The notes below the pieces were generated by a model, which saw only the letters and a program-made list of their open reading frames with translations, was not told the origin of the DNA and did not search any database. DNA of 64,000 nucleotides from Chitinophagaceae bacterium LGM1. GTDB taxonomy: Bacteria > Bacteroidota > Bacteroidia > Chitinophagales > Chitinophagaceae. The stretch is from the NCBI GenBank assembly GCA_018604165.1, contig CP075895.1, positions 310,001 through 374,000 of the forward strand, given 5' to 3'. How positions within the stretch are numbered: the first letter of the stretch is position 1; the number at the start of each line of letters is the position of its first letter. Positions 34,128 to 47,015 of the stretch are shown one piece after another. The translations under genes and the position numbers were made by a program.

Positions 34128-34261
34128 AAATAAAGATTTTACTTAAAGCTAAAAAATATTAACCGAAACGAAAATATTAGTGGTTAATGAGCAATATGTT
34201 ATGGTAAAATAAGTACACTATCTATTTTTTTGATAGTAGGTATAGATACAAAATATACTAC

Positions 34262-34289
34262 GGAAACATTTTTTATACAAAACGTTTCC
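34262..34289. promoter_or_regulatory. Operator-like palindrome before the TetR gene
   Basis: An inverted repeat with 11-bp arms (GGAAACATTTT at 34262-34272; complement of GGAAACGTTTT at 34279-34289), 10 of 11 positions matching, around a 6-bp centre. It directly precedes the -7 box at 34291-34298 and so covers the spacer of the core promoter, a good place for autorepression by the TetR-family protein. Confidence 0.65.
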
Positions 34290-34290
34290 A

Positions 34291-34298
34291 TAGTTTTG
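34291..34298 (+). promoter_or_regulatory. Bacteroidota -7 box for the efflux operon
   Basis: TAGTTTTG matches TAnnTTTG exactly, 10 bp before the ATG at 34308, implying a very short or absent 5' leader. It directly follows the operator-like palindrome. Confidence 0.55.
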
Positions 34299-34307
34299 CC
34301 CCCGATT

Positions 34308-34934
34308 ATGGAACCACTAACAAAAATACTCAGTGCGTCCGCGGAATTGTTCAGGCAATATGGCTTCAAAACAATTACCATGGATGATATAGCGAGAAGG
34401 GCGGGTATTTCTAAAAAAACCCTCTACCAGCATTTTGCCAACAAAAACGAGGTAGTAAACGAAGCCATTACCTGGTTTCAGTGCAGCGTATCAGAAAGTT
34501 GCATCAGCATACTGGAGCAGTCGGAAAACGCCATTGAGGGTTTTGTGCGCATCATGGGTATGTTCGATCAGGTATTGAGCAATATGAACCCGCTTGGTAT
34601 GTTGGAGTTGGAACGTTACTACCCTGAAGCCTTTAAAAAGTTTAAAGCCAATATGCTGGAAAAAGACATTGAGGCCATTAAAAACAACATCCTCAGGGGT
34701 ATGGAAGAAGGCTTGTACCGTGAGGGGCTGAATGCAGACTTCATGGCGCGCTACCGTATGGAAATAAGTATGCTGGTGCTACACCCCAACCTGATGATAA
34801 ACACCCGCAACGACCTGCAATTTGTAATGCACGAGGTGAGCGAACACTTTCTGTATGGCATTATGACACCCAAAGGAGAAAAACTATACCATAAATACAA
34901 AGAACAATACTTAAAGCAAGTTTCTAAATTATGA
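34308..34934 (+). CDS. TetR-family regulator of the RND efflux operon
   Basis: A 208-residue repressor-like protein. The helix-turn-helix is at about residues 22-46 (FKTITMDDIARRAGISKKTLYQHFANK), and the rest is the variable ligand-binding helical domain. The ATG at 34308 follows the -7 box by 10 bp; an earlier ATG frame from 34230 would read through the operator and promoter and is rejected. It overlaps the TolC-like gene by 4 bp (ATGA), so regulator and pump are in one operon. Likely it binds the palindrome at 34262-34289 and represses its own operon until a ligand is present. Confidence 0.92.
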   Translation: MEPLTKILSASAELFRQYGFKTITMDDIARRAGISKKTLYQHFANKNEVVNEAITWFQCSVSESCISILEQSENAIEGFVRIMGMFDQVLSNMNPLGMLELERYYPEAFKKFKANMLEKDIEAIKNNILRGMEEGLYREGLNADFMARYRMEISMLVLHPNLMINTRNDLQFVMHEVSEHFLYGIMTPKGEKLYHKYKEQYLKQVSKL

Positions 34935-36292
34935 GGCGATTATTATACAGTACTACATTAGCACTTTGCCTGTCACCACTTACCATGTTCGGGCAAGAAA
35001 CAACATCTCAGGAGCCTGTACCCCTGAGCCTTGAAGACGCATTGAAATATGCCGTAAAGCACAATGTAAAAGCCAAGAATGCAAGATTAGACATTAAAAA
35101 ACAACAGGCAATAAATGCAGAAGTAACAGGTATCGCATTGCCCAATCTACGTACTGAGGGGCAATATAATGATTTCCTCAACCCGCAGAAATCATTCGTG
35201 CCTGGTGAGTTTATCGGTATGCCTGGCACTTTTGTACCGGTACAGTTTACGCCCAAATATGGTGTAACAGCAAGTGGTACAGCATCGCAAATACTGTTTG
35301 ATGGAAGTGTAATGGTTGCATTGCAAGCACGTAACGGATTACTGAAGCTATACCAACAAGCTGCATTGCTAAGTGAAGAAACTGTACGTTATGAAGTACA
35401 GAAATCATATTACGGGTTCGTTATTTCAAAAAAGCAGTATGAAATACTTAAAACCAATATGAGCAACCTGCGCAGGGTAGCTTACGAGATGGGGGCTATG
35501 TATGAAACTGGGTTTATTGAAAAAATTGAGGTTGATAGGATAAACGTACAGGTGAATAATCTCATTACCGATAGTTTACGTATTGGTGCATTAATTGATG
35601 TGACAGAACAACTGTTGAAATATCAAATGGGTATGGATATAGCACAGCAAATAATACTAACGGATACAGCTGTAGATAATAATATTGCTGAAGCTGCTGC
35701 ATTAGTAATAAATACAAACGCAGATTACGATGACAGGACTGAGTTTAACCTATTAAACACGCAATTGAATCTGCAAAAATACGACCTGAAAAGGCATCGC
35801 CTTTCCGGGCTTCCTACATTAGCCGCTTTCGCAAGCGCAGGTTATAACTATGCTACTAATGATTTTGACGAGGTCTTCAAGTTTTATAATAACTATCAAT
35901 TCTATTCTCTTTGGGGGTTAAAGCTATCAGTTCCATTATTTGATGGTATGCAACGTTACAACAGGGTAAAGCAATCAAAAATTAATGTAAAACAAGCGGA
36001 AAATAATCTTGATGATTTGAAAAGAGGTATTGACCTGCAAACCGCATCTGCAAAAACTAATTTGAAAAATGCTTTACTAAACCTTAAAAATCAGGAGCAA
36101 AATTTAAAACTGGCAGAGAATGTACTTGATATAGCCAATAAAAAATACAAAGCAGGTGTTGGTAGTAATATAGAAATAGTACAAGCGCAATCAGACTTAG
36201 CACAAACACAAACAAAATATTTCAGTGCTATGATGGATGTTGTAACTGCAAAATCTGATTTACAAAAAGCAACAGGACAATTTAAAAAATAA
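34931..36292 (+). CDS. TolC-like outer-membrane efflux protein
   Basis: A 453-residue outer-membrane channel of a tripartite pump. The signal peptide ends near residue 20 (TMFGQE). Two repeats of the outer membrane efflux domain follow, with long coiled-coil helices (LSLEDALKYAVKHNVKAKNARLDIKKQQ at the first, and AENVLDIANKKYKAGVGSNIEIVQAQSDLAQ at the last), the latter being the typical TolC motif. It overlaps the TetR gene and precedes the adaptor by 40 bp. Confidence 0.93.
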   Translation: MRRLLYSTTLALCLSPLTMFGQETTSQEPVPLSLEDALKYAVKHNVKAKNARLDIKKQQAINAEVTGIALPNLRTEGQYNDFLNPQKSFVPGEFIGMPGTFVPVQFTPKYGVTASGTASQILFDGSVMVALQARNGLLKLYQQAALLSEETVRYEVQKSYYGFVISKKQYEILKTNMSNLRRVAYEMGAMYETGFIEKIEVDRINVQVNNLITDSLRIGALIDVTEQLLKYQMGMDIAQQIILTDTAVDNNIAEAAALVINTNADYDDRTEFNLLNTQLNLQKYDLKRHRLSGLPTLAAFASAGYNYATNDFDEVFKFYNNYQFYSLWGLKLSVPLFDGMQRYNRVKQSKINVKQAENNLDDLKRGIDLQTASAKTNLKNALLNLKNQEQNLKLAENVLDIANKKYKAGVGSNIEIVQAQSDLAQTQTKYFSAMMDVVTAKSDLQKATGQFKK

Positions 36293-36332
36293 TCAAACAA
36301 CCATTTAATCAACTTATTATAAAATAAATAGC

Positions 36333-37436
36333 ATGAAACGCTCACTTTATCTAATATTAATATCAACAAGCCTGCTGGCTGCATGTGGCGGAGACGACAA
36401 AAGCGGCAAAGGCGAAGCAGAACTGTCTAAACTGAAGAAAGAACGTGCTGCTCTGGACGAAAAAATTGTAAAACTGGAAGCAGAAGTAAACAAAAACAAA
36501 CCCGCCAAAGCTACAGCAGTATCTGTAATGGCTGCTACAGCGCAAGCATTCAGTGCGTATGTAGAGGTGCAGGCGAATGTAAACGGTGAACAAAGCGTAT
36601 TAGCAACGCCACAAGCTGCAGGAATTGTGGAAAGAATACTTGTAAAGCCCGGGCAAAAAGTAGGTAAAGGCCAGACATTGGCAATACTTGATGCGGCAGC
36701 AGTAGAACAACAGATAAAATCTTTAGATGCACAACTGACGCTCGTTAAAGCATTGTATGAAAAACAACAAAAGCTTTGGGCACAAAATATAGGGTCTGAA
36801 GTACAGCTAATGTCTGCAAAAGCGCAATACGAAGCAACAGCAAAACAAAAAGCAGCCTTACAGGCACAAAGAGATATGTATTCTATCAAATCTCCTATTA
36901 ATGGTACGGTTGATGGAATAAACATTAAAGAAGGTGAAATGGCAGCTATTGGTATGTTAGGTATAAGGGTAGTAAATGCTGAAGCTTTGAAAGTGCAAGC
37001 AAATCTTGGTGAAAACTATTTAGGGCAAGTTAAAGAAGGAGATCCTGTTAATCTAATTTTCACATCATCATCAGATACTATAAAATCAAAACTTACGTAT
37101 GTTTCAAAAGCTGTAGATGCTATATCTCGCGCATTTCAGGTGGAGGTTAGGCTGGGTAGCAACAGCAAGCTGCACCCCAACATGAGTTGCAAAATGCAGA
37201 TAGCTAATTATCAGAACAGCAAAGCCATCGTAGTGCCGGTATCTGTAATACAAAATACAGCAGCAGGTGAAGTGTTGTTTGTGGCTGATGGCAACAAGGC
37301 AAAATCTGTGACAGTAAAAACAGGGCGTAACTCAAACGGGATGGTAGAAATACTTGACGGACTGAAAGAAGGCGATAGGGTTATTACAGCAGGTTATGCA
37401 GACCTTGATAACGGCGATCTTGTAAACGTAGAATAG
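36333..37436 (+). CDS. RND periplasmic adaptor (membrane fusion) lipoprotein
   Basis: A 367-residue adaptor. The lipobox is LLAAC with C18. A coiled-coil region (about residues 28-55) precedes the barrel-sandwich hybrid domain: GIVERILVKPGQKVGKGQTLAILD first half, ATAKQKAALQAQ hairpin, then YSIKSPINGTVDGINIKEGEM second half. A beta-barrel and a membrane-proximal domain (VKTGRNSNGMVEILDGLKEGDRVITAGYADL) follow. It links the TolC-like protein to the pump. Confidence 0.94.
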   Translation: MKRSLYLILISTSLLAACGGDDKSGKGEAELSKLKKERAALDEKIVKLEAEVNKNKPAKATAVSVMAATAQAFSAYVEVQANVNGEQSVLATPQAAGIVERILVKPGQKVGKGQTLAILDAAAVEQQIKSLDAQLTLVKALYEKQQKLWAQNIGSEVQLMSAKAQYEATAKQKAALQAQRDMYSIKSPINGTVDGINIKEGEMAAIGMLGIRVVNAEALKVQANLGENYLGQVKEGDPVNLIFTSSSDTIKSKLTYVSKAVDAISRAFQVEVRLGSNSKLHPNMSCKMQIANYQNSKAIVVPVSVIQNTAAGEVLFVADGNKAKSVTVKTGRNSNGMVEILDGLKEGDRVITAGYADLDNGDLVNVE

Positions 37437-37469
37437 GACAATTCATCACCAACAGTAAAAAAAGTTCTA

Positions 37470-40400
37470 ATGAAAGATTCATTCAAAGAGTTTAAGCCAT
37501 CCAGTTGGGCGATAGACAATCGCACAGCCATATATATACTGACGGTTATCATTACCCTTGCGGGCTTAATGACCTATCTGAACCTGCCCAAAGAGCAGTT
37601 CCCGGAAATAAAAATGCCGCAGATAATTGTGCAGACAATTTATCCCGGTACTTCTCCCGAAAACATGGAGAACCTGGTAACTAAGCCTATTGAAAAGCAG
37701 GTAAAAAACATTACGGGTGTAAAGAAAGTTACCAGCAACTCGTTTCAGGATTTCTCGGTTGTGATGATTGAATTCAACACCGATGTAAAGATTAATGAAG
37801 CAAAACGCGAGGTAAAGGACGCGGTTGATAAAGCAAAAGTAGATTTGCCCAACAACCTGCCGAATGAGCCCGAGGTAAATGATATTGACTTTTCTGAATT
37901 CCCGATTCTGTATGTGAATATATCGGGCAATTACGACCTGAACAGGCTGAAAAAATATGCGGATAAGGTAAAGGATAATATAGAAGACCTGAAGCAAATA
38001 AAGCGTGCAGACATGGTGGGTGCACTGGAGCGTGAGATACAGATAAATGTGGACATGTATAAGATGGCAGCATCAGGCTTCACATTCGGTGATATTGAAA
38101 ATGCGGTAGCGTACGAAAACATTACATCTACACCCGGCCAGGTATCCATGAACAATCAAAAAAGGATATTGACGGTACGCAACGAGTTTAAGAGTGCAGA
38201 GCAGATAGGCAACCTGATAGTAAAAAACCAGCACGGCAAGGCACTGTATCTTAAAGACATTGCCGATGTGGTAGATAATTTTGAAGAGCAGATAAGCTAT
38301 GCACGTCTTGACAATAAGAATGTAATAACGCTGAATGTAATCAAAGCCAAAGGACAAAACCTGATTGAAGCTTCGGACAATATTCAAGAGCTGATAACCA
38401 AAATGAAGGCTGATGAATTACCTAAAGATTTGGATATCGTTATTACAGGCGACCAGTCAGACCAGACACGTCATACACTCGAAGATCTGATAAATACCAT
38501 CATCATTGGTTTTATATTAGTTACCATCATCCTGATGTTCTTCATGGGTGTTACCAATGCCTTGTTTGTGGCTATGTCAGTACCGCTATCATGTGCGGTG
38601 GCATTCTTGGTGTTGCCGGGTATAGATTTCACACTCAATATGATTGTGCTGTTCTCATTCCTGCTGGCATTGGGTATAGTGGTGGATGATGCGATTGTGG
38701 TAATAGAAAATACGCACCGAATATTTGACAATGGTAAAATGGACATTAAGAAAGCAGCCAAAGTAGCAACGGGAGAAGTCTTTCTGCCAGTGCTATCGGG
38801 TACTGCCACTACATTGATGCCATTTATTCCATTAGCATTCTGGGATGGCCTGATAGGTTCATTCATGTTCTTCTTGCCGGTTACGCTTATCATTACGTTG
38901 GTCGCCTCTTTATTGGTAGCCTATATCATCAACCCGGTGTTTGCTGTTGACTTTATGAAACCGCATAAACCAAACGACGATGGTAAACGCAAGTGGAGCA
39001 AGCGCGATAAAGTAGTGATGATAATATTCCTGTCGCTGGCTGCACTTTGTTATACAGCACAGGCATGGGGCATGGGCAACTTTATTATCTTCATTTACCT
39101 CTTTATACTATTGGAAAAATTTGTTCTGGAAAAATGGATACAGAAATTCCAAAATAAAACATGGCCTGCATTTAAAGAGTGGTATTTAAGATGGTTGAAA
39201 CGTGCACTCAACAAACCGCACCAAACGTTTTGGGGTTCAATAGTTATTGTTGTTTTTTCTTTTGTGGTTTTCGGAATATGGGGGCCATCGCCGGTATTCT
39301 TCCCGAGTGGCGAACCAAACTTTGCGTACGTGTACCTGAATATGCCCGTAGGTACAGATCAGGCATATACCAATACAGTATTAATGAACCTTGAAGACAG
39401 AGTTAACAAGGCGTTGGATATAGACCTTGCAAAAGGTAAAAAGAACCCGATTGTAAAATCTGTTATTGCAAACGTAACAGTAGGGGCGGTTGACCCAACA
39501 AGTGGTGAAGTAGGTAACTTTCCTAATAAAGGACGTATTACGGTAGCGTTTGTAAAATTTGCAGACAGGAAAGGCATCTCATCATCAATGTATCTTGATA
39601 AAATAAGGGCATCTGTAAAAGGTGTACCGGGTGCAGAGGTAACGGTGGATAAAGAACAAGGTGGACCGCCACAGCAAAAACCTGTATTGATAGAAATAAA
39701 AGGCGATAACCTCGACTCGTTGGTAGCAACTTCTGAAAGACTGAATAAGTATTTGTCTAAAAAGCAGATACCGGGTGTTGAAGCACTGCAAAGCGACTTT
39801 CAGGCCAATAAACCGGAAATAGTTTTCGACCTCGACCGCGAGCGTATGAACAGCGAAGGTATATCTACCGGACAAGTGGTAATGAATTTGCGTACCGCTG
39901 TATTCGGTAAAGAAATATCACGTTTCCGCGATGCGAATGACGATTACCCCATAACGCTGAGGCTGAAGAAAGACCAGCGCGAGGATATAGATGCGGTACG
40001 TAATATGCCGATGATATTCCGGGATATGGGTATGGGTGGTGTTATACGTGAAGTGCCTGTGAGTTCTTTTGCAGATATCAGATACGACAATACGTATGGT
40101 GGTATCAAACGCAAAGACCAGAAGCGCATCATATCGCTGTCATCAAACGTATTGACGGATTATAATCCTAATGAAGTGGTAGCTGCCGTGCAGCGCGAGA
40201 TTGATAACTTCAACGCTCCATCAGGTGTAACCATCAAAATGGGTGGGCAGCAAGAAGACCAGGCAGAAACGATGGGCTTCCTCGGCAAGGCAATGCTCAT
40301 ATCAGTTGGCTTGATATTCCTGACACTGATAATTCAGTTCAACTCATTCAGCCGTACCATTGTAATTATGAGTGAAATTATACTGAGTTGGGCAGGTGTA

Positions 40401-40871
40401 TTCTTAATGACTACCATCGTTCGCAACGACTTCTCTATCGTAATGAGCGGTATAGGTTTGGTCGCATTGGCGGGTATAGTCGTCCGAAATGGTATCTTAT
40501 TAATAGAGTTTATGGATTTGATGCTGAAAGACGGCATGCAGCCTTATGATGCTATCGTAGAAGCAGGTCGTACACGTATGACACCCGTAATACTGACAGC
40601 TACAGCAGCAATACTTGGTCTTATTCCCCTCGGAGTGGGGCTGAACATAGACTTTGCATCATTCTTTACAACACTCAACCCACATATTTACTTCGGTGGC
40701 GATAGTGTAGCATTCTGGGGACCATTGGCATGGACAATGATATATGGCCTTAGCTTCGCTACATTCCTAACGCTGATATTAGTACCTGTGATGATGTTGT
40801 TGAGTTTCCGTTTTAAAGCACGTATCAAACGCTGGAGAGAAAAATTCAGTGCGTCTATTCAGGAAAAATAA
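37470..40871 (+). CDS. RND-family efflux permease (AcrB superfamily)
   Basis: An inner-membrane proton-driven exporter of 1133 residues with 12 membrane segments and two large periplasmic loops. The opening WAIDNRTAIYILTVIITLAGLMTYLNLPKEQFPEIKMP and the proton-relay Asp pair in LGIVVDDAIVVIENTHRIF (TM4) are diagnostic, and EAGRTRMTPVILTATAAILGLIPL is the second-half signature. It is about 100 residues longer than AcrB; the extra length falls partly around residues 500-590, between the two halves, where additional hydrophobic stretches (VVMIIFLSLAALCYTA and FIIFIYLFILLEKF) occur. The substrate is unknown. Confidence 0.94.
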   Translation: MKDSFKEFKPSSWAIDNRTAIYILTVIITLAGLMTYLNLPKEQFPEIKMPQIIVQTIYPGTSPENMENLVTKPIEKQVKNITGVKKVTSNSFQDFSVVMIEFNTDVKINEAKREVKDAVDKAKVDLPNNLPNEPEVNDIDFSEFPILYVNISGNYDLNRLKKYADKVKDNIEDLKQIKRADMVGALEREIQINVDMYKMAASGFTFGDIENAVAYENITSTPGQVSMNNQKRILTVRNEFKSAEQIGNLIVKNQHGKALYLKDIADVVDNFEEQISYARLDNKNVITLNVIKAKGQNLIEASDNIQELITKMKADELPKDLDIVITGDQSDQTRHTLEDLINTIIIGFILVTIILMFFMGVTNALFVAMSVPLSCAVAFLVLPGIDFTLNMIVLFSFLLALGIVVDDAIVVIENTHRIFDNGKMDIKKAAKVATGEVFLPVLSGTATTLMPFIPLAFWDGLIGSFMFFLPVTLIITLVASLLVAYIINPVFAVDFMKPHKPNDDGKRKWSKRDKVVMIIFLSLAALCYTAQAWGMGNFIIFIYLFILLEKFVLEKWIQKFQNKTWPAFKEWYLRWLKRALNKPHQTFWGSIVIVVFSFVVFGIWGPSPVFFPSGEPNFAYVYLNMPVGTDQAYTNTVLMNLEDRVNKALDIDLAKGKKNPIVKSVIANVTVGAVDPTSGEVGNFPNKGRITVAFVKFADRKGISSSMYLDKIRASVKGVPGAEVTVDKEQGGPPQQKPVLIEIKGDNLDSLVATSERLNKYLSKKQIPGVEALQSDFQANKPEIVFDLDRERMNSEGISTGQVVMNLRTAVFGKEISRFRDANDDYPITLRLKKDQREDIDAVRNMPMIFRDMGMGGVIREVPVSSFADIRYDNTYGGIKRKDQKRIISLSSNVLTDYNPNEVVAAVQREIDNFNAPSGVTIKMGGQQEDQAETMGFLGKAMLISVGLIFLTLIIQFNSFSRTIVIMSEIILSWAGVFLMTTIVRNDFSIVMSGIGLVALAGIVVRNGILLIEFMDLMLKDGMQPYDAIVEAGRTRMTPVILTATAAILGLIPLGVGLNIDFASFFTTLNPHIYFGGDSVAFWGPLAWTMIYGLSFATFLTLILVPVMMLLSFRFKARIKRWREKFSASIQEK

Positions 40872-40929: not shown

Positions 40930-40951
40930 GGGGCGTTATATAACGCCCCTT
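40930..40951 (+). terminator. Intrinsic terminator of the efflux operon
   Basis: GGGGCGTT and its complement around an ATAT loop (40930-40949), flanked by AAG/CTT that lengthen the stem and followed by a short T-rich run (TTTGTTATTT). It lies 59 bp past the pump stop. Confidence 0.8.
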
Positions 40952-41001: not shown

Positions 41002-41009
41002 TATTTTTG
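41002..41009 (+). promoter_or_regulatory. Bacteroidota -7 box before the ketosynthase cluster
   Basis: TATTTTTG fits TAnnTTTG and lies 20 bp before the methyltransferase ATG at 41029. Confidence 0.5.
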
Positions 41010-41028: not shown

Positions 41029-42120
41029 ATGACTGGCTCCCCGACAACAAAACCAAAAATGTTTGAAACGGAAAAAAAATCAGCACTCGATGCTATTTCG
41101 CAGGCGCAATTCATCGCTTTTGCACCTTATATTTTTCAGGCATCAGTAATATTAAGAGATAGTGGCATTCTGCATAAAGTACAGGATAGCCGCAACAATG
41201 GCATTTCGCTGGATGAGATAGCTGCAACTACAAATATGATCCGCTATGGCATTCGTATATTATTGGAAGCAGGATTAGGCATTGGGCTGGTATTACGCAA
41301 AGAGGATAAATATTATTTATCAAAAACAGGCCACTTCTTTTTGAACGACCCGATGACACGCGTGAATACAGATTTTATGCACGATGTGTGTTACGAGGGT
41401 GCGAAAGAGCTAAAATCATCTATTGAGCAAAGCAAACCTAACGGACTTCAATACCTCGGTAATTGGGAAACTATCTATCAGGGATTATCTATATTGCCAG
41501 AGCCTGCTAAAACAAGCTGGTTCAATTTCGACCACTACTATTCAGACAATGCATTCCCCGAAGCACTGCCGATGGTGTTTGCGAGTAATCCTAAGAAGGT
41601 TATGGATATTGGAGCGAATACAGGTAAGTTTACATTGGCTTGTTTAGAACATAACAAAGAGGTAGAAGTAGGGCTGGTGGATTTGCAGGTGCAATTAAAC
41701 GTAGCAAAGCAAAATATAGAAGAGGCAGGTTTCGGCAATAGAGTGCAGTATCATGAAAGAAATGTATTGCACAAAGACAGCGAATTGCCAACAGGCTATG
41801 ACGTGATATGGATGAGCCAGTTTTTAGATTGTTTTGCTGATGATGAAATTGTTTTTATACTTGAAAAATGCCACCGTGCATTGGGCGCAGATGGTAGGGT
41901 GTTTATTAACGAAACATTCTGGGACAGGCAACGTTTTGAAGCATCAGCCCTTAGCTTGCAAATGACATCGCTCTACTTTACCACAATGGCAAATGGCAAC
42001 AGCCAGATGTATGATAGTAAGGTGTTTTTAGAATTGATTGGCAAAGCAGGTTTTGAAGTGGTGGCAGATACTGATAACATAGGCCTCAGCCATACCATTC
42101 TCGAATTGCGTAAAAAGTGA
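41029..42120 (+). CDS. O-methyltransferase-like SAM-dependent methyltransferase
   Basis: A 363-residue protein of the plant-type O-methyltransferase shape. A helical dimerisation/winged-helix part (residues 10-110: ISQAQFIAFAPYIFQASVILRDSGI, and ISLDEIAATTNMIRYGIRILLEAGLGI) precedes the SAM domain with motif I KVMDIGANTGKFTLACL near residue 187, the acidic VGLVDLQ after strand 2, and WMSQFLDCFADDEI. It lies first in a pigment-type cluster and could methylate an aryl or polyene intermediate. A -7 box lies 20 bp upstream. The next gene follows after 70 bp. Confidence 0.85.
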   Translation: MTGSPTTKPKMFETEKKSALDAISQAQFIAFAPYIFQASVILRDSGILHKVQDSRNNGISLDEIAATTNMIRYGIRILLEAGLGIGLVLRKEDKYYLSKTGHFFLNDPMTRVNTDFMHDVCYEGAKELKSSIEQSKPNGLQYLGNWETIYQGLSILPEPAKTSWFNFDHYYSDNAFPEALPMVFASNPKKVMDIGANTGKFTLACLEHNKEVEVGLVDLQVQLNVAKQNIEEAGFGNRVQYHERNVLHKDSELPTGYDVIWMSQFLDCFADDEIVFILEKCHRALGADGRVFINETFWDRQRFEASALSLQMTSLYFTTMANGNSQMYDSKVFLELIGKAGFEVVADTDNIGLSHTILELRKK

Positions 42121-42190
42121 TGCAAGTCATTTTCTTATAAAAAGTATCATTGTATTTTTCACTCAAGTTTTTAAAATCTCATTCCCCCTC

Positions 42191-43432
42191 ATGAGTACGC
42201 AAAAGCAAACAGATGTACTGGTAATTGGTGCAGGCCCGTCCGGCACTATTGCTGCATCCATCATTAAGCAGGCAGGTTTGTCTGTGCAGATTGTAGAAAA
42301 AATGCAGTTCCCTCGTTTTGTAATTGGCGAAAGCCTGTTGCCACGCTGTATGGAAGCATTGGAAGAAGCAAAATTTCTGGATGCAGTAAAAGCAAAAGGC
42401 TTTCAACAGAAAGACGGCGCCAAGTTTGTAAAGAATGGCGAAATATGTGATTTTACATTCGCGCAACAACACGCCGATGGCTGGCGGTGGACATGGCAGG
42501 TGCCGCGTGCGGATTTTGATACTACACTGGCCGATGAATGTGTGAAGATGGGAATCCCCGTTGCTTATCAAACAGAAGTCACTGACATAAAAATTGACGA
42601 TAACGGACATTCTGTTACCACCATCAAAACAGCAGATGGTGCAGAGCAAACTATACACGCCAAGTTTATTATTGACGGCAGTGGTTATGGCAGAGTAATC
42701 CCACGTCTATTTGGTTTGGATAAGCCATCTACACAGTATCCACGCAAAACGCTTTTCTGTCACATGACAGACCCTAAGCGCAGCGAAGCAGTAGAGCCCA
42801 ACCGCATTACTGTATATGTACACAATGAAAGAACATGGATATGGGTAATACCTTTTTCCAATGGCAATACATCGGTAGGTTATGTCGGAGACCCTGATTT
42901 TTTTGACAAGTTTGCTGGCAATGCTGAAGAGCAGTTTCGGGCATTGATAATGGCACAACAAGAGCTGGCAGTACGTTTTGGTGAATCTGATATGTTGTGG
43001 GAGCCGCGTACACTGCAAAGCTGGAGTGCTACTACAGACACATTTTACGGAAAAGGCTTTGTACTGACAGGTAATGTTACCGAGTTTCTCGACCCGATAT
43101 TTTCTTCCGGTGTAACACTTGCTTCCGTATCGGCTCAGTTGGCTGCAAATTTGGTAGTGCGCCACTTCAAAGGTGAAGAACTGGATTGGGAGAATGATTA
43201 TATGAAGAAGATGATGCAGGGTGTAGATGTGTTTCGCACGTATGTAAACAGTTGGTACGATGGTACGCTGTTTAATATCTTCTTCGCACCCAATCGTAGC
43301 CCCGAAATCATGTCGCAGATATGCTCTGTATTGGCTGGTTATGTATGGGATGATACAAATCCTTTTGTAAAACATCACGAGAAAAATGTGCGTACATTAG
43401 GGCGCTATTTGGCAAATAATGCTACATCTTAA
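42191..43432 (+). CDS. Tryptophan-halogenase-like flavoprotein
   Basis: A 413-residue FAD-dependent enzyme. The N-terminal dinucleotide fold is VLVIGAGPSGTIAASIIKQAG, followed by FPRFVIGESLLPRC, the GES-containing pattern of halogenase-type oxidoreductases. The segment TWIWVIPF at residues 215-222 contains a full WxWxIP motif, which is used to tell flavin halogenases from monooxygenases. In flexirubin-type clusters similar enzymes are found and some products are chlorinated, but halogenation here is not proved. It overlaps the next gene by 14 bp. Confidence 0.85.
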   Translation: MSTQKQTDVLVIGAGPSGTIAASIIKQAGLSVQIVEKMQFPRFVIGESLLPRCMEALEEAKFLDAVKAKGFQQKDGAKFVKNGEICDFTFAQQHADGWRWTWQVPRADFDTTLADECVKMGIPVAYQTEVTDIKIDDNGHSVTTIKTADGAEQTIHAKFIIDGSGYGRVIPRLFGLDKPSTQYPRKTLFCHMTDPKRSEAVEPNRITVYVHNERTWIWVIPFSNGNTSVGYVGDPDFFDKFAGNAEEQFRALIMAQQELAVRFGESDMLWEPRTLQSWSATTDTFYGKGFVLTGNVTEFLDPIFSSGVTLASVSAQLAANLVVRHFKGEELDWENDYMKKMMQGVDVFRTYVNSWYDGTLFNIFFAPNRSPEIMSQICSVLAGYVWDDTNPFVKHHEKNVRTLGRYLANNATS

Positions 43433-44051
43433 TATCCATACAAAACCCGCAATCAGCAACTGGTTGCGTGTCAACAAACATTCGGTGATAAAGGACGGCA
43501 GTCCTTTATTGTCGTTTAATGAGCCTATAGATAGCAATGCCCCTGATGTGCTGTATCGCGCATTACAATGCAATTATCCCAAGTTTTTTAAAATGGATTT
43601 GATAAGCAAATGGGTATGGTTGGGGGCAGAAGTATTGTTGAAACAGGCAGCAGGCGTTGTGTATGATGGTATAGATAAAACAAAAATAGCTATCGTACTG
43701 CAAACCAATCATGGTTGCCTGGATGTAGATAAAAAGTACAGTGAAACGCTGGCAACAATTCCAAGCCCTGCATTGTTTGTATATACATTGCCCAACATCA
43801 TGCTCGGCGAAATATGCATCAGGCATGGTTTTAAAGGAGAGCAGGCTTGTGTGGTGAGCGATGGGTTTGACGCGAAAGAAATGGAATTTTGGGTGAATGA
43901 TTTGTTGAATAACCGGGGTATGGAAGCCTGTCTTTGCGGATGGGTAGATGCAACTGCAAACAATCACGAACTGTCGTTGTATTGGGTATCAAAACAAAAC
44001 GGGCAATTAAATTTCACAGCAGATGCGATGCTGGAAATACATAGTAAATAA
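43419..44051 (+). CDS. Truncated ketosynthase-like protein
   Basis: A 210-residue protein similar in layout to the N-terminal half of beta-ketoacyl synthases (KIAIVLQTNHGCLDVDKKYSETL, then SPALFVYTLPNIMLGEICIRHGFKGEQACVV). The nucleophile segment lacks the usual TACSS; ACVVSDGFD stands there, and there are no HGTGT or GH histidines because the second half is absent. It is thus a stand-alone, catalytically unlikely KS-like protein, a type that also occurs in flexirubin or aryl-polyene clusters. It overlaps the halogenase-like gene and abuts the KS gene by TAATG, so the three are coupled. Confidence 0.7.
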   Translation: MLHLNIHTKPAISNWLRVNKHSVIKDGSPLLSFNEPIDSNAPDVLYRALQCNYPKFFKMDLISKWVWLGAEVLLKQAAGVVYDGIDKTKIAIVLQTNHGCLDVDKKYSETLATIPSPALFVYTLPNIMLGEICIRHGFKGEQACVVSDGFDAKEMEFWVNDLLNNRGMEACLCGWVDATANNHELSLYWVSKQNGQLNFTADAMLEIHSK

Positions 44052-45247
44052 TGAAACAGGCAGCATATATCATAAACACAGGCATCATTACTGCAATAGG
44101 TAATGATACGGCTGCATGTTTGGATGCATTGTTAAATGGTCGGTCTGGCATAGGCAAAGCAAACCATCTGAAAACCCATTGGGCTGATGAACTGCCTGTT
44201 GCAGAAGTAAAACTGAGCAATGAAGAGATGGCTGCTATAGCAGGCGTGGATGCTCGCTGGCCGCGTACTGCATTGTTGAGTGCCATAGCTGTAAAAGAAG
44301 CATGGCAACCATTTGCTGATAAAGTAAAAGGATTAAAAACAGGTTTCTTTTCTGCTACTACAGTTGGTGGTATGGATTTGACAGAAAATGTGTACAAGGC
44401 ATTTAAAGAAGATAGTGGAACAGTAGATTTCAACAATATCAAAAATCACGAGTGTGGTGCTATTACAGAATTAGTTGCCAATCATTTTTGCATCAGCGAT
44501 TTTGTTACAACCATCAGTACAGCTTGCTCATCTTCTGCCAACAGCATTATGATGGCAGCACAGATGATTGGTAATGGTATGCTGGATGTTGCCATTGCAG
44601 GCGGTGCAGATAGCCTTTCACGCTTTACACTCAACGGGTTTAACACCCTGATGATACTGGATAAGCAACCTTGTCAACCATTTGACAATAACAGGCGTGG
44701 ACTGAACTTGGGCGAGGGTGCAGGGTATGTATTACTGATGAGTGAAAAAGCTATGCAGCAGTGCGGAGCAACAGCATCGTGCATTGTAAGCGGTTATGCC
44801 AATGCCAACGATGCCTATCATCAAACAGCATCATCGCCCGATGGTACGGGTAATAAACTGGCTATGGGCAATGCGCTGAAAGTAGCCAATCTGCAACCTG
44901 CTGATATTGATTACATAAACCTGCATGGTACGGGTACAGCCAACAACGATAGCTCTGAAGGTAAAGCGATTGAAGCCTTGTTTGCCGATAAAGTACCAAT
45001 GGCATCTTCTACCAAAGCATATACTGGGCATACATTGGGTGCGGCTGGTGGTGTAGAGGCAGTGTTTGGGGTATTAAGCATCAGGCACGGCATCGTATAT
45101 CCCAACTTGCGTTGGCAAACACAAATGGGAGATCTAAACTTTAAGCCTGTTACTACTTTACAGCAGGGGTTAGCTATTCGCCATGTATTATCCAACTCAT
45201 TCGGGTTTGGCGGTAATTGTTCATCGCTTGTTTTCAGTAAATGCTAA
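44051..45247 (+). CDS. Beta-ketoacyl-ACP synthase (FabF type), active form
   Basis: A 398-residue condensing enzyme. It has the full Cys-His-His triad: C159 in TISTACSSSAN, H292 in NLHGTGTANND and H327 in AYTGHTLGAAGG, and the KS core segments AIAGGADSLSRFT and GEGAGYVLLM. It would extend an acyl or polyene chain by decarboxylative Claisen condensation with an ACP-bound malonyl unit. No ACP gene is in the cluster, so a distant ACP must serve it. It is coupled to the genes on both sides and is probably paired with the KS-like protein that follows. Confidence 0.93.
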   Translation: MKQAAYIINTGIITAIGNDTAACLDALLNGRSGIGKANHLKTHWADELPVAEVKLSNEEMAAIAGVDARWPRTALLSAIAVKEAWQPFADKVKGLKTGFFSATTVGGMDLTENVYKAFKEDSGTVDFNNIKNHECGAITELVANHFCISDFVTTISTACSSSANSIMMAAQMIGNGMLDVAIAGGADSLSRFTLNGFNTLMILDKQPCQPFDNNRRGLNLGEGAGYVLLMSEKAMQQCGATASCIVSGYANANDAYHQTASSPDGTGNKLAMGNALKVANLQPADIDYINLHGTGTANNDSSEGKAIEALFADKVPMASSTKAYTGHTLGAAGGVEAVFGVLSIRHGIVYPNLRWQTQMGDLNFKPVTTLQQGLAIRHVLSNSFGFGGNCSSLVFSKC

Positions 45248-46299
45248 GTATGGAATTGTACATAACAGGCACGGGTATAGTAAGTGGCGCAGGCAATAGC
45301 GGCGATGATAGTTTTTTGAAAGAAGCACCTGCCTACGATACTGATAAGCTATTGTGCGTAGAGCCTAACTATACAGCTTATATACCGCCCATGCAATTGC
45401 GCCGTATGAGCAAAGCAGTACGTATAGGCATCGGTGCATCTAAAATGTGCATGGCATCTGCAGGTATAGAAAAACCAGATGCCATATCAGTAGGTACCGC
45501 TATGGGCTGTCTGGCAGATACGGAAGTGTTTCTTGGTAAGATGATAGCACAAGATGAGCAGATGCTGACACCTACTGCATTCATCCAATCTACTCACAAT
45601 ACCGTTAGCGGGCAGATAGCTTTACTGGCTGGCTGCTACGGACACAACCTTACTTTCGTACAACGAGGGCATTCGTTTGAACACGCTGTAATGAATACGC
45701 AACTCTATCTGGCAGATAATCCGTATGAACAAATGCTGGTAGGTGGTATTGATGAACTGACAGAGGGTAGTTTGGAAGCTTTGAAAATTGGTGGTATCAA
45801 CAATAAGCAAAACAGCATACCAGCCGATGTGCTGAATGGCAATAACGTGGGTTGCATAGCAGGCGAGGCAGCATCGTTTTTTATAATGACGGATAAGAAG
45901 CCCGCTAATGCTGCTTTGTGTATTAAAGATGTGTACTGCTTTGCCGATAAGGATAATGCAACTGCTGTTAAGAAAATAGAATCGTATATCACCAAACACC
46001 AACAAAAGATTGACGTAACCGTATTAGGACAAAGTGGTGATGCTGCATCAAACCCTATTTACCAATCCTTATGTTCAGGTCTATTGAAAGATATACCTCA
46101 GTATGCTTTCAAACATTTGTGTGGCGAATATGCCACTGCGTCTGCATTTGCATTAGGTATGTTGGCAAATTCGGTTTTGAAAAACAAACCCTTACCAGCA
46201 CATTGTATGCTGAATAAAGAAGTGGGTGAAATGAAAAATATCTTATTGATAAACCACTACATGCATTACTATAGTTGCTGGTGGCTGCAGGTAGTTTAG
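45241..46299 (+). CDS. KS-like chain-length-factor-type protein without catalytic residues
   Basis: A 352-residue thiolase-fold protein that begins LYITGTGIVSGAG like a ketosynthase. All three catalytic positions are changed: Cys to Gln141 (TFVQRGHSF), the HGTGT His to Gln (LGQSGD), and the second His to Glu (CGEYATASA). This is the pattern of chain-length factors and of KS-partner subunits in aryl-polyene and type II PKS systems, where a Gln also replaces Cys. It likely forms a heterodimer with the KS at 44051. The ATG at 45241 overlaps the previous stop; ATG 45250 would also fit. It ends in 4-bp overlap with the reductase gene. Confidence 0.85.
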   Translation: MLSMELYITGTGIVSGAGNSGDDSFLKEAPAYDTDKLLCVEPNYTAYIPPMQLRRMSKAVRIGIGASKMCMASAGIEKPDAISVGTAMGCLADTEVFLGKMIAQDEQMLTPTAFIQSTHNTVSGQIALLAGCYGHNLTFVQRGHSFEHAVMNTQLYLADNPYEQMLVGGIDELTEGSLEALKIGGINNKQNSIPADVLNGNNVGCIAGEAASFFIMTDKKPANAALCIKDVYCFADKDNATAVKKIESYITKHQQKIDVTVLGQSGDAASNPIYQSLCSGLLKDIPQYAFKHLCGEYATASAFALGMLANSVLKNKPLPAHCMLNKEVGEMKNILLINHYMHYYSCWWLQVV

Positions 46300-47015
46300 C
46301 CGTATAGCTCCAGATGTATGGCTTTTTTATCGTAGCCCATCTCAAGCAGGCGTTTCTTTGCTTCGTCCACCATCATCTTCCATCCGCAGAGCATAAAATG
46401 CGCGTTCGGGTTGCCGGCACATAGTTTTTCATACACACCATGTACATAGCCTTTATCATATCCCTCAATATCTTCTCTTGATAATACAGGATGGTATTTA
46501 AAATTTGGTAAAGCAGTTTCTAGCTGGCTTAGTTCATCTTCGTACAATAAATCTGCCTTTGTGCGTGTGCCGAATATCAGGTGTAGTTGATGATGCGGTA
46601 AGTTGTGGTGCTTTATATGGTTTACCATGCTGCGGAACGGGGCGATGCCTGTACCAGTGCATATCATGTATATATCATGTTCAATGTTTTCGGGTAGGGT
46701 AAAGACTCCTTGTGGTCCGCGTACCACCAACTCGCTACCTTCTTTTACTTCATTAAAGAAATAAGTAGTACCTAACCCACCTTCCAGATACACTATTACT
46801 AATTCTATTACGTTACCACTATCAGGCGATGAGGCGATGCTGTAGCTACGCCAACGTTTGTTGCGCTGCTCATGTATCGGTAAGTCGAGTGTTACAAATT
46901 GTCCGGGCTTAAAATCAAATACAGGTGTTTCAGGCAATTCAATCCAATAGCGGCGTGTGTTTTCAGTTGCCTGCTCTACACGTTGTACTATGCCTTTTTG
47001 CCATTGGGGTATCAT
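46296..47015 (-). CDS. FNR-like ferredoxin/flavodoxin reductase
   Basis: A 239-residue oxidoreductase of the ferredoxin-NADP reductase fold. The FAD-binding domain contains WRSYSIASSPD near residue 54 and the NAD(P) domain contains ICTGTGIAPFRSM and FGTRTKADLLYEDEL, with the terminal FMLCGWKMMVDEAKKRL. It moves electrons between NAD(P)H and a small carrier. The family contains both electron carriers and oxygenase reductases, so the partner cannot be named. It is convergent with the ketosynthase cluster and may or may not be related to it. Confidence 0.9.
   Translation of the reverse strand: MIPQWQKGIVQRVEQATENTRRYWIELPETPVFDFKPGQFVTLDLPIHEQRNKRWRSYSIASSPDSGNVIELVIVYLEGGLGTTYFFNEVKEGSELVVRGPQGVFTLPENIEHDIYMICTGTGIAPFRSMVNHIKHHNLPHHQLHLIFGTRTKADLLYEDELSQLETALPNFKYHPVLSREDIEGYDKGYVHGVYEKLCAGNPNAHFMLCGWKMMVDEAKKRLLEMGYDKKAIHLELYG

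Follow-up and report, generated by a model that had tools for sequence, protein, structure and literature searches.

The chromosome of Chitinophagaceae bacterium LGM1 carries a compact group of ketosynthase-type genes within a 64,000-nucleotide stretch, here called the window (GenBank assembly GCA_018604165.1, contig CP075895.1, positions 310,001 to 374,000 of the forward strand). The listing of open reading frames (ORFs) in the window places five plus-strand ORFs at 41029-46299, coupled as an initial annotation made from the sequence alone had described them, with genes 2-5 overlapping successively by 14, 1 and 7 bases (flxK/flxL, flxL/flxN and flxN/flxO) and a gap of 70 bases between the first two genes, flxJ and flxK (Table 1). 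The perfect palindrome GGGGCGTTATATAACGCCCC upstream of flxJ is likely the terminator of the preceding resistance-nodulation-division (RND) operon, which would set the five-gene operon apart. The octamer TATTTTTG matches TAnnTTTG, the -7 promoter element of Bacteroidota; it is likely the promoter of the operon and recurs about 30-40 bases 5' of flxA, of darB and of a trio of acyl carrier protein (ACP), ketosynthase (KS) and chain length factor (CLF)-like genes elsewhere in the genome. The letters given to the genes follow their colinearity with the published description of the flexirubin pigment genes of Chitinophaga pinensis, for which flxA-flxY and their roles have been set out (PMC3992019); the intact clusters compared were those of Chitinophaga (L088) and of other genera.

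Table 1. Features of the window (plain coordinates) and of other parts of the LGM1 chromosome (C1); aa, amino acids
Feature	Coordinates	Strand	Basis
Efflux operon: TetR-like regulator with TolC-, membrane-fusion- and RND-type genes, directly upstream	34230-40871
Perfect 20-base palindrome GGGGCGTTATATAACGCCCC, T-rich run after it	40930..40949	.	sequence read directly; function predicted
Octamer TATTTTTG, ahead of first ATG	41002..41009	+	sequence read directly; promoter function predicted
flxJ, S-adenosylmethionine-dependent methyltransferase, 363 aa	41029..42120	+	NCBIfam and PDB matches
flxK, halogenase-like flavin adenine dinucleotide (FAD) enzyme, 413 aa	42191..43432	+	Pfam and PDB matches
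flxL, half-size KS-like, 210 aa, predicted ApeC-like single thiolase-fold CLF	43419..44051	+	alignment, profile search, model, fold matches
Site of missing flxM; flxL/flxN overlap by one base	44051	+	comparison with intact clusters
flxN, predicted active KS, 398 aa, C159/H292/H327	44051..45247	+	Pfam domains, catalytic motifs
flxO, CLF-like inactive KS homologue, 352 aa	45241..46299	+	Ketoacyl-synt_2; catalytic positions replaced; profile matches
FAD/NAD reductase domain gene, convergent with flxO, touching operon end	46296-47015	-	ORF and domain
flxA, tyrosine ammonia-lyase	C1:189557-191116		NF053541, 810.3 bits (cut-off 700)
flxB, FabG-type short-chain dehydrogenase/reductase (SDR) ketoreductase adjoining flxA	C1:189.6-193.8k block		NF053542, 388.3 bits (cut-off 340)
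flxC, FabB-like KS after flxB	C1:189.6-193.8k block
flxD-I in order: ACP, LpxL-type acyltransferase, FabZ-like dehydratase, Lol-position protein, 4HBT thioesterase, KS	C1:1218.6-1222.4k
flxU, MMPL-type exporter	C1:1662.7k		46%
darB, dialkylresorcinol synthase	C1:1738.6k		NF053539, 570.2 bits (cut-off 550)
darA candidate, 309-aa ORF in DarA position beside darB	C1:1738.6k
flxT, glycosyltransferase, intact, 390 aa	C1:1910.2k		53%
flxP-R-S-dehydratase, in order	C1:1979.1-1981.5k
flxV	C1:2068.4k		46%
ACP-KS-CLF-like trio, paralogous to flxM-N-O	C1:2270.6-2273.2k (L015:6625-9184)

The five predicted enzymes are of the types first assigned to them, with some refinement. FlxJ combines Dimerisation2-like and Methyltransf_2 domains in Pfam, matches PDB entry 3dp7 (E 1.3e-105) and has as its best NCBIfam model NF053543 FlxJ_fam_MTase, matched over its full length (E 1.8e-147, 490.9 bits). 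The fold bears out its first reading as O-methyltransferase-like, but ring methylation is the likelier reaction because in flexirubins the methionine-derived methyl group is carried by the aromatic ring of the polyene, and flexirubins differ in both ring methylation and chlorination (PMC3992019). FlxK, assigned to Trp_halogenase/FAD_binding_3 in Pfam, has as its closest PDB chain 3nix (E 4.6e-161), annotated only as a flavoprotein/dehydrogenase, and as its second-best match the halogenase CmlS (E 3.1e-40, 141 bits); given this variation of flexirubin rings it is predicted to be a ring-modifying enzyme, and it is halogenase-like by family. FlxN contains the N- and C-terminal ketoacyl-synt domains and a Cys/His/His triad whose motifs are kept in 80/80 relatives, as expected of an active KS, and in FlxO, a Ketoacyl-synt_2 protein, all three catalytic positions are replaced, both in the window protein and in its relatives, and a FlxO profile finds both KS and CLF chains, among them 6qsp_B and 7f28_A.

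FlxL matches no Pfam family. A profile of 22 members weakly matches KS/CLF chains (6kxd_B, E 0.004), and an AlphaFold model built from the 22 sequences, with a predicted local distance difference test (pLDDT) score of 85.9, has its best fold matches among KS and CLF chains, one of them the ishigamide CLF. Compared with the half-size CLF ApeC, the model gives a Foldseek E of 5.1e-6 and template modelling (TM) scores of 0.53/0.48 for 6qsp_B, and TM scores of 0.50/0.52 for 7f28_C, the half-size ApeC of 7F28. Judged from this model, the protein initially described as half-size and KS-like would match the definition in PMC8358021 of a half-size CLF with a single thiolase fold. Four loci of Mucilaginibacter have flxL and flxN joined as a single open frame of ~610 aa (L048:9353-11185, L089:9368-11188, L093:257-2095, L096:3452-5287), which suggests that the half-size protein works with FlxN; its partner may be either FlxN, as in these fusions, or FlxI, whose best solved-structure match is ApeO.

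The arrangement of these genes identifies the pathway to which they belong. Around 80 relatives of FlxN, neighbourhoods were mapped by a tblastn gene-order map of the 80 loci, in which intact clusters (L038, L050) run A-B-C-D-E-F-G-H-I-J-K-L-M-N-O-P-R-S-DH, an order seen in Chitinophaga, Ferruginibacter, Terrimonas, Pinibacter, Niabella and metagenome-assembled genomes (MAGs) wherever the contig is of sufficient length, with T-U-V following P-R-S-DH in Chitinophaga (L088). The window genes are J-K-L-N-O in the order of the intact clusters. The same order, whose comparison across Bacteroidota the initial annotation had proposed, is present in 17 other genomes and is therefore not a matter of chance; in the nearest genomes (L021, L022) the five proteins are 74-91% identical to those of LGM1.

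The remainder of the pathway lies in the same genome, a single contig (C1) of 3.32 Mb that is 99.99% complete. Recognised flx pieces occur at C1:189k, 351k, 1218k, 1662k, 1738k, 1910k, 1979k and 2068k and not in one cluster. ACP, dehydratase and tyrosine ammonia-lyase genes, the ones for which a genome search had been suggested, are all found outside the segment, and genes for a LolA-like protein, dehydratases, a thioesterase, a glycosyltransferase and an exporter all lie elsewhere in the genome, in pieces within which the genes follow the canonical flx order. From gene content and colinearity, the segment very probably represents the flxJ-K-L-N-O operon of a flexirubin pathway that is complete or almost so. 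In this lineage, the Taibaiella/Flavipsychrobacter group of the Chitinophagaceae, the canonical single cluster of that pathway has come apart into about nine pieces along the chromosome. Of the two views left open initially, the one that took the segment for part of a larger, split pathway has stood, and the one that took it for a distinct small system has not: the rest of the flexirubin pathway is elsewhere and the segment is a known part of it, the outcome named at the outset as counting against the proposal. Single-cluster arrangement of flx genes is usual but not required for the pathway. No report of a dispersed flexirubin cluster was found in the open literature, the subscription literature lying outside the search. 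In Taibaiella lutea, a MAG and Edaphocola flava (L041, L053, L063), flxL/flxN or flxN stand without adjoining flxJ and flxK, a further step of dispersal. Taibaiella soli (L032), a cultured relative, shares the arrangement of LGM1. An ORF 2.6 kb downstream of flxA-B-C (L010:16397-17350, C1:196.4k) reads as a putative insertion-sequence transposase with a zinc-ribbon start.

The absence of an ACP from the segment, already remarked upon initially, proves to be the specific loss in one lineage of flxM, a point that the earlier reading had not identified. In intact clusters (31 loci) flxM, an ACP gene of 87 aa, stands between flxL and flxN; in the five-gene segment no ACP is encoded and flxL runs directly into flxN, and flxM is likewise absent from this position in 17/17 of the closest J-K-L-N-O loci. 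An ACP overlooked in the gap between flxL and flxN of the relatives was ruled out, the gaps of L028, L030, L031, L034, L035, L036 and L086 containing none. Only three ACPs in the whole LGM1 genome pass PF00550 and none is of the FlxM group, so that a relocated flxM was also rejected: the FlxM-like one of the three, encoded at C1:2270.6k, groups with a second ACP class (99% support in the Shimodaira-Hasegawa-like approximate likelihood-ratio test, SH-aLRT) and is therefore a paralogue. Its mean identity is 61% to the second class, 53% to FlxM and 25% to FlxD, which makes it the most FlxM-like ACP left in the genome. A family survey of 79 genomes, with rows sorted by identity and adjacency, found 21 with a flxN relative at at least 54% identity; flxM lies directly upstream of flxN in 10/21 and not in 11/21, and a second FlxM-like ACP is encoded elsewhere in all 21, usually directly upstream of a second KS. 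Because both gene sets share the ACP-KS-CLF order, the ancestral unit probably had an ACP and flxM was then lost. In a quick flxN tree the window falls in a clade of 21 rows (99%), all of them without flxM, and the flxM state of all loci can be accounted for by three changes, with Mucilaginibacter as a separate case; the direction of change is read from the shared gene order, since the quick tree alone does not fix it.

Loss of flxM and break-up of the cluster go together within the family: no more than 5 kb separates flxI and flxN in 6/6 flxM-bearing genomes tested, and in 6/6 flxM-less ones flxI is on another contig or 111 kb away. These genomes may be one clade, and the association may thus reflect one event. 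The Mucilaginibacter cluster is contiguous yet flxM-less, and break-up is therefore not required for the loss. Mucilaginibacter loci (L048, L060, L089 and others) resemble LGM1 in carrying flxI-L-N-O without flxM and encode a second-class ACP nearby, but unlike LGM1 their cluster is contiguous and without flxJ and flxK, besides the flxL-flxN fusions. FlxM, present in the intact clusters of Chitinophagaceae and absent from those of Mucilaginibacter, is accordingly not strictly defining for flexirubin.

The reference systems are the flxA-flxY cluster of C. pinensis (Cpin_1853-1877; MIBiG BGC0000839) and that of Flavobacterium johnsoniae (BGC0000838). LGM1 shares with them the order and orientation of J-K-L-N-O and, across its genome, the tyrosine ammonia-lyase, SDR, ACP, acyltransferase, dehydratases, LolA-like protein, glycosyltransferase, exporter and DarB; it differs in spreading the genes over about nine places instead of one cluster and a dar locus, in the absence of flxM and in that a clear flxY was not found. 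The aryl polyene (APE) type II polyketide synthases ApeO-ApeC/ApeR with the ACPs ApeE and ApeF, solved from Xenorhabdus doucetiae (6QSP) and Acinetobacter baumannii (7F28), offer a second comparison, as they comprise a KS with a half-size, one-thiolase-fold CLF, a second, FabB-like KS and two separate ACPs (PMC8358021). FlxL shares the size class and fold of ApeC and FlxC is FabB-like, whereas flexirubin uses a tyrosine-derived 4-coumarate starter and a dialkylresorcinol ester, flx has two extra KS-type proteins (FlxN, FlxO), and in LGM1 only one of the two pathway ACPs is left in a recognised flx block.

The proposed pathway would begin with deamination of tyrosine to 4-coumarate by FlxA (C1:189.6k). 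After activation, 4-coumarate would be extended to an aryl polyene by a type II system of the KSs FlxC, FlxI and FlxN and the non-catalytic partners FlxL and FlxO, with the ketoreductase FlxB and the FabZ-like dehydratases acting in the extension. FlxJ would methylate the ring and FlxK oxidise or halogenate it, DarB with DarA would make the dialkylresorcinol, the esterification partner of the polyene, and FlxP/R/T/U would export the product. With FlxM lost, FlxN-FlxO (and/or FlxL) would be served by an ACP in trans, most likely the paralogue at C1:2270.6k and otherwise FlxD at C1:1218.6k. The best reading is thus of ordinary flexirubin enzymes in an unusual arrangement, a cluster that has come apart and is supplied with a borrowed ACP in trans.

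That the operon might instead be a distinct small polyketide system, its five enzymes producing, without the other flx genes, their own short polyene with a methyl group or halogen, is highly improbable. It has its own likely promoter and a terminator-isolated start and is stably inherited as a unit of five genes in 17 other genomes, but its colinearity, gene for gene, with the central part of intact flx clusters, the family match of FlxJ, the remaining flx pieces kept in canonical order in the same genome and the lack of its own ACP, reductase and dehydratase all speak otherwise. Little more credible is a decaying remnant, in which the pathway no longer works after loss of flxM (perhaps also flxY) and break-up of the cluster. 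The missing flxM, a dedicated coenzyme A (CoA) ligase that was not found and the dispersal of the genes would agree with decay, against which stand the open, full-length frame of every located gene, the catalytic motifs of FlxN kept in 80/80 relatives, the internal order of the dispersed pieces, the identity of the five proteins to those of L021 and L022 and the retention of flxI in 6/6 other flxM-less genomes tested.

The source of the ACP is less settled. We suggest, tentatively and at somewhat less than even odds, that the clade makes flexirubin from about nine loci and that its FlxM-less FlxN-FlxO takes the ACP in trans from the trio at C1:2270.6-2273.2k. That FlxD alone serves every KS, FlxN-FlxO included, seems rather unlikely: of the ACPs, FlxD alone lies inside a recognised flx block, but its mean identity to FlxM is 25%, less than half the 53% of the C1:2270.6k ACP, whose class occurs in 21/21 flxN genomes, including all 11 without flxM. 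Several points weigh against a dispersed flexirubin pathway with a borrowed ACP. The 490.9 bits of FlxJ fall below the 560-bit equivalog cut-off of NF053543, the DarA candidate has no match to any NCBIfam or Pfam model, and a dedicated 4-coumarate-CoA ligase (FlxY) was not found in the genome by PF00501 search, which returned only two AMP-binding proteins, one acetyl-CoA-synthetase-like by size and one FadD-like. The ACP and KS of the second trio occur without flxN in three genomes (G054, G064, G070), and the second-trio ACP has its own KS-CLF and so may belong to a different product; the proposed substitution draws on an absence and a co-occurrence.

The segment is isolated, as initially described, between the RND efflux operon upstream and the convergent reductase gene downstream. 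The TetR/TolC/RND operon also adjoins the flx piece in several close relatives, and the reductase gene remains close to the operon in most of the close relatives whose flanking sequence is long enough; the reductase could feed reduced flavin to FlxK or be a mere conserved neighbour.

What is unusual here is the break-up of the cluster together with the loss of flxM, and the possible sharing of a paralogous ACP, the genes themselves being ordinary. To cluster-finding programs such a segment, in fact one piece of a known pigment pathway, would look like a short orphan KS locus, and the flexirubin capacity of the group would be counted too low or mistaken for new chemistry. If the ACP of the trio does serve FlxN-FlxO, a single carrier protein is shared between two type II polyketide systems. 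For aryl-polyene-type pathways, the APE literature has not decided whether the two ACPs fill separate, replaceable roles (PMC8358021), and the repeated absence of flxM offers a natural test of this question.

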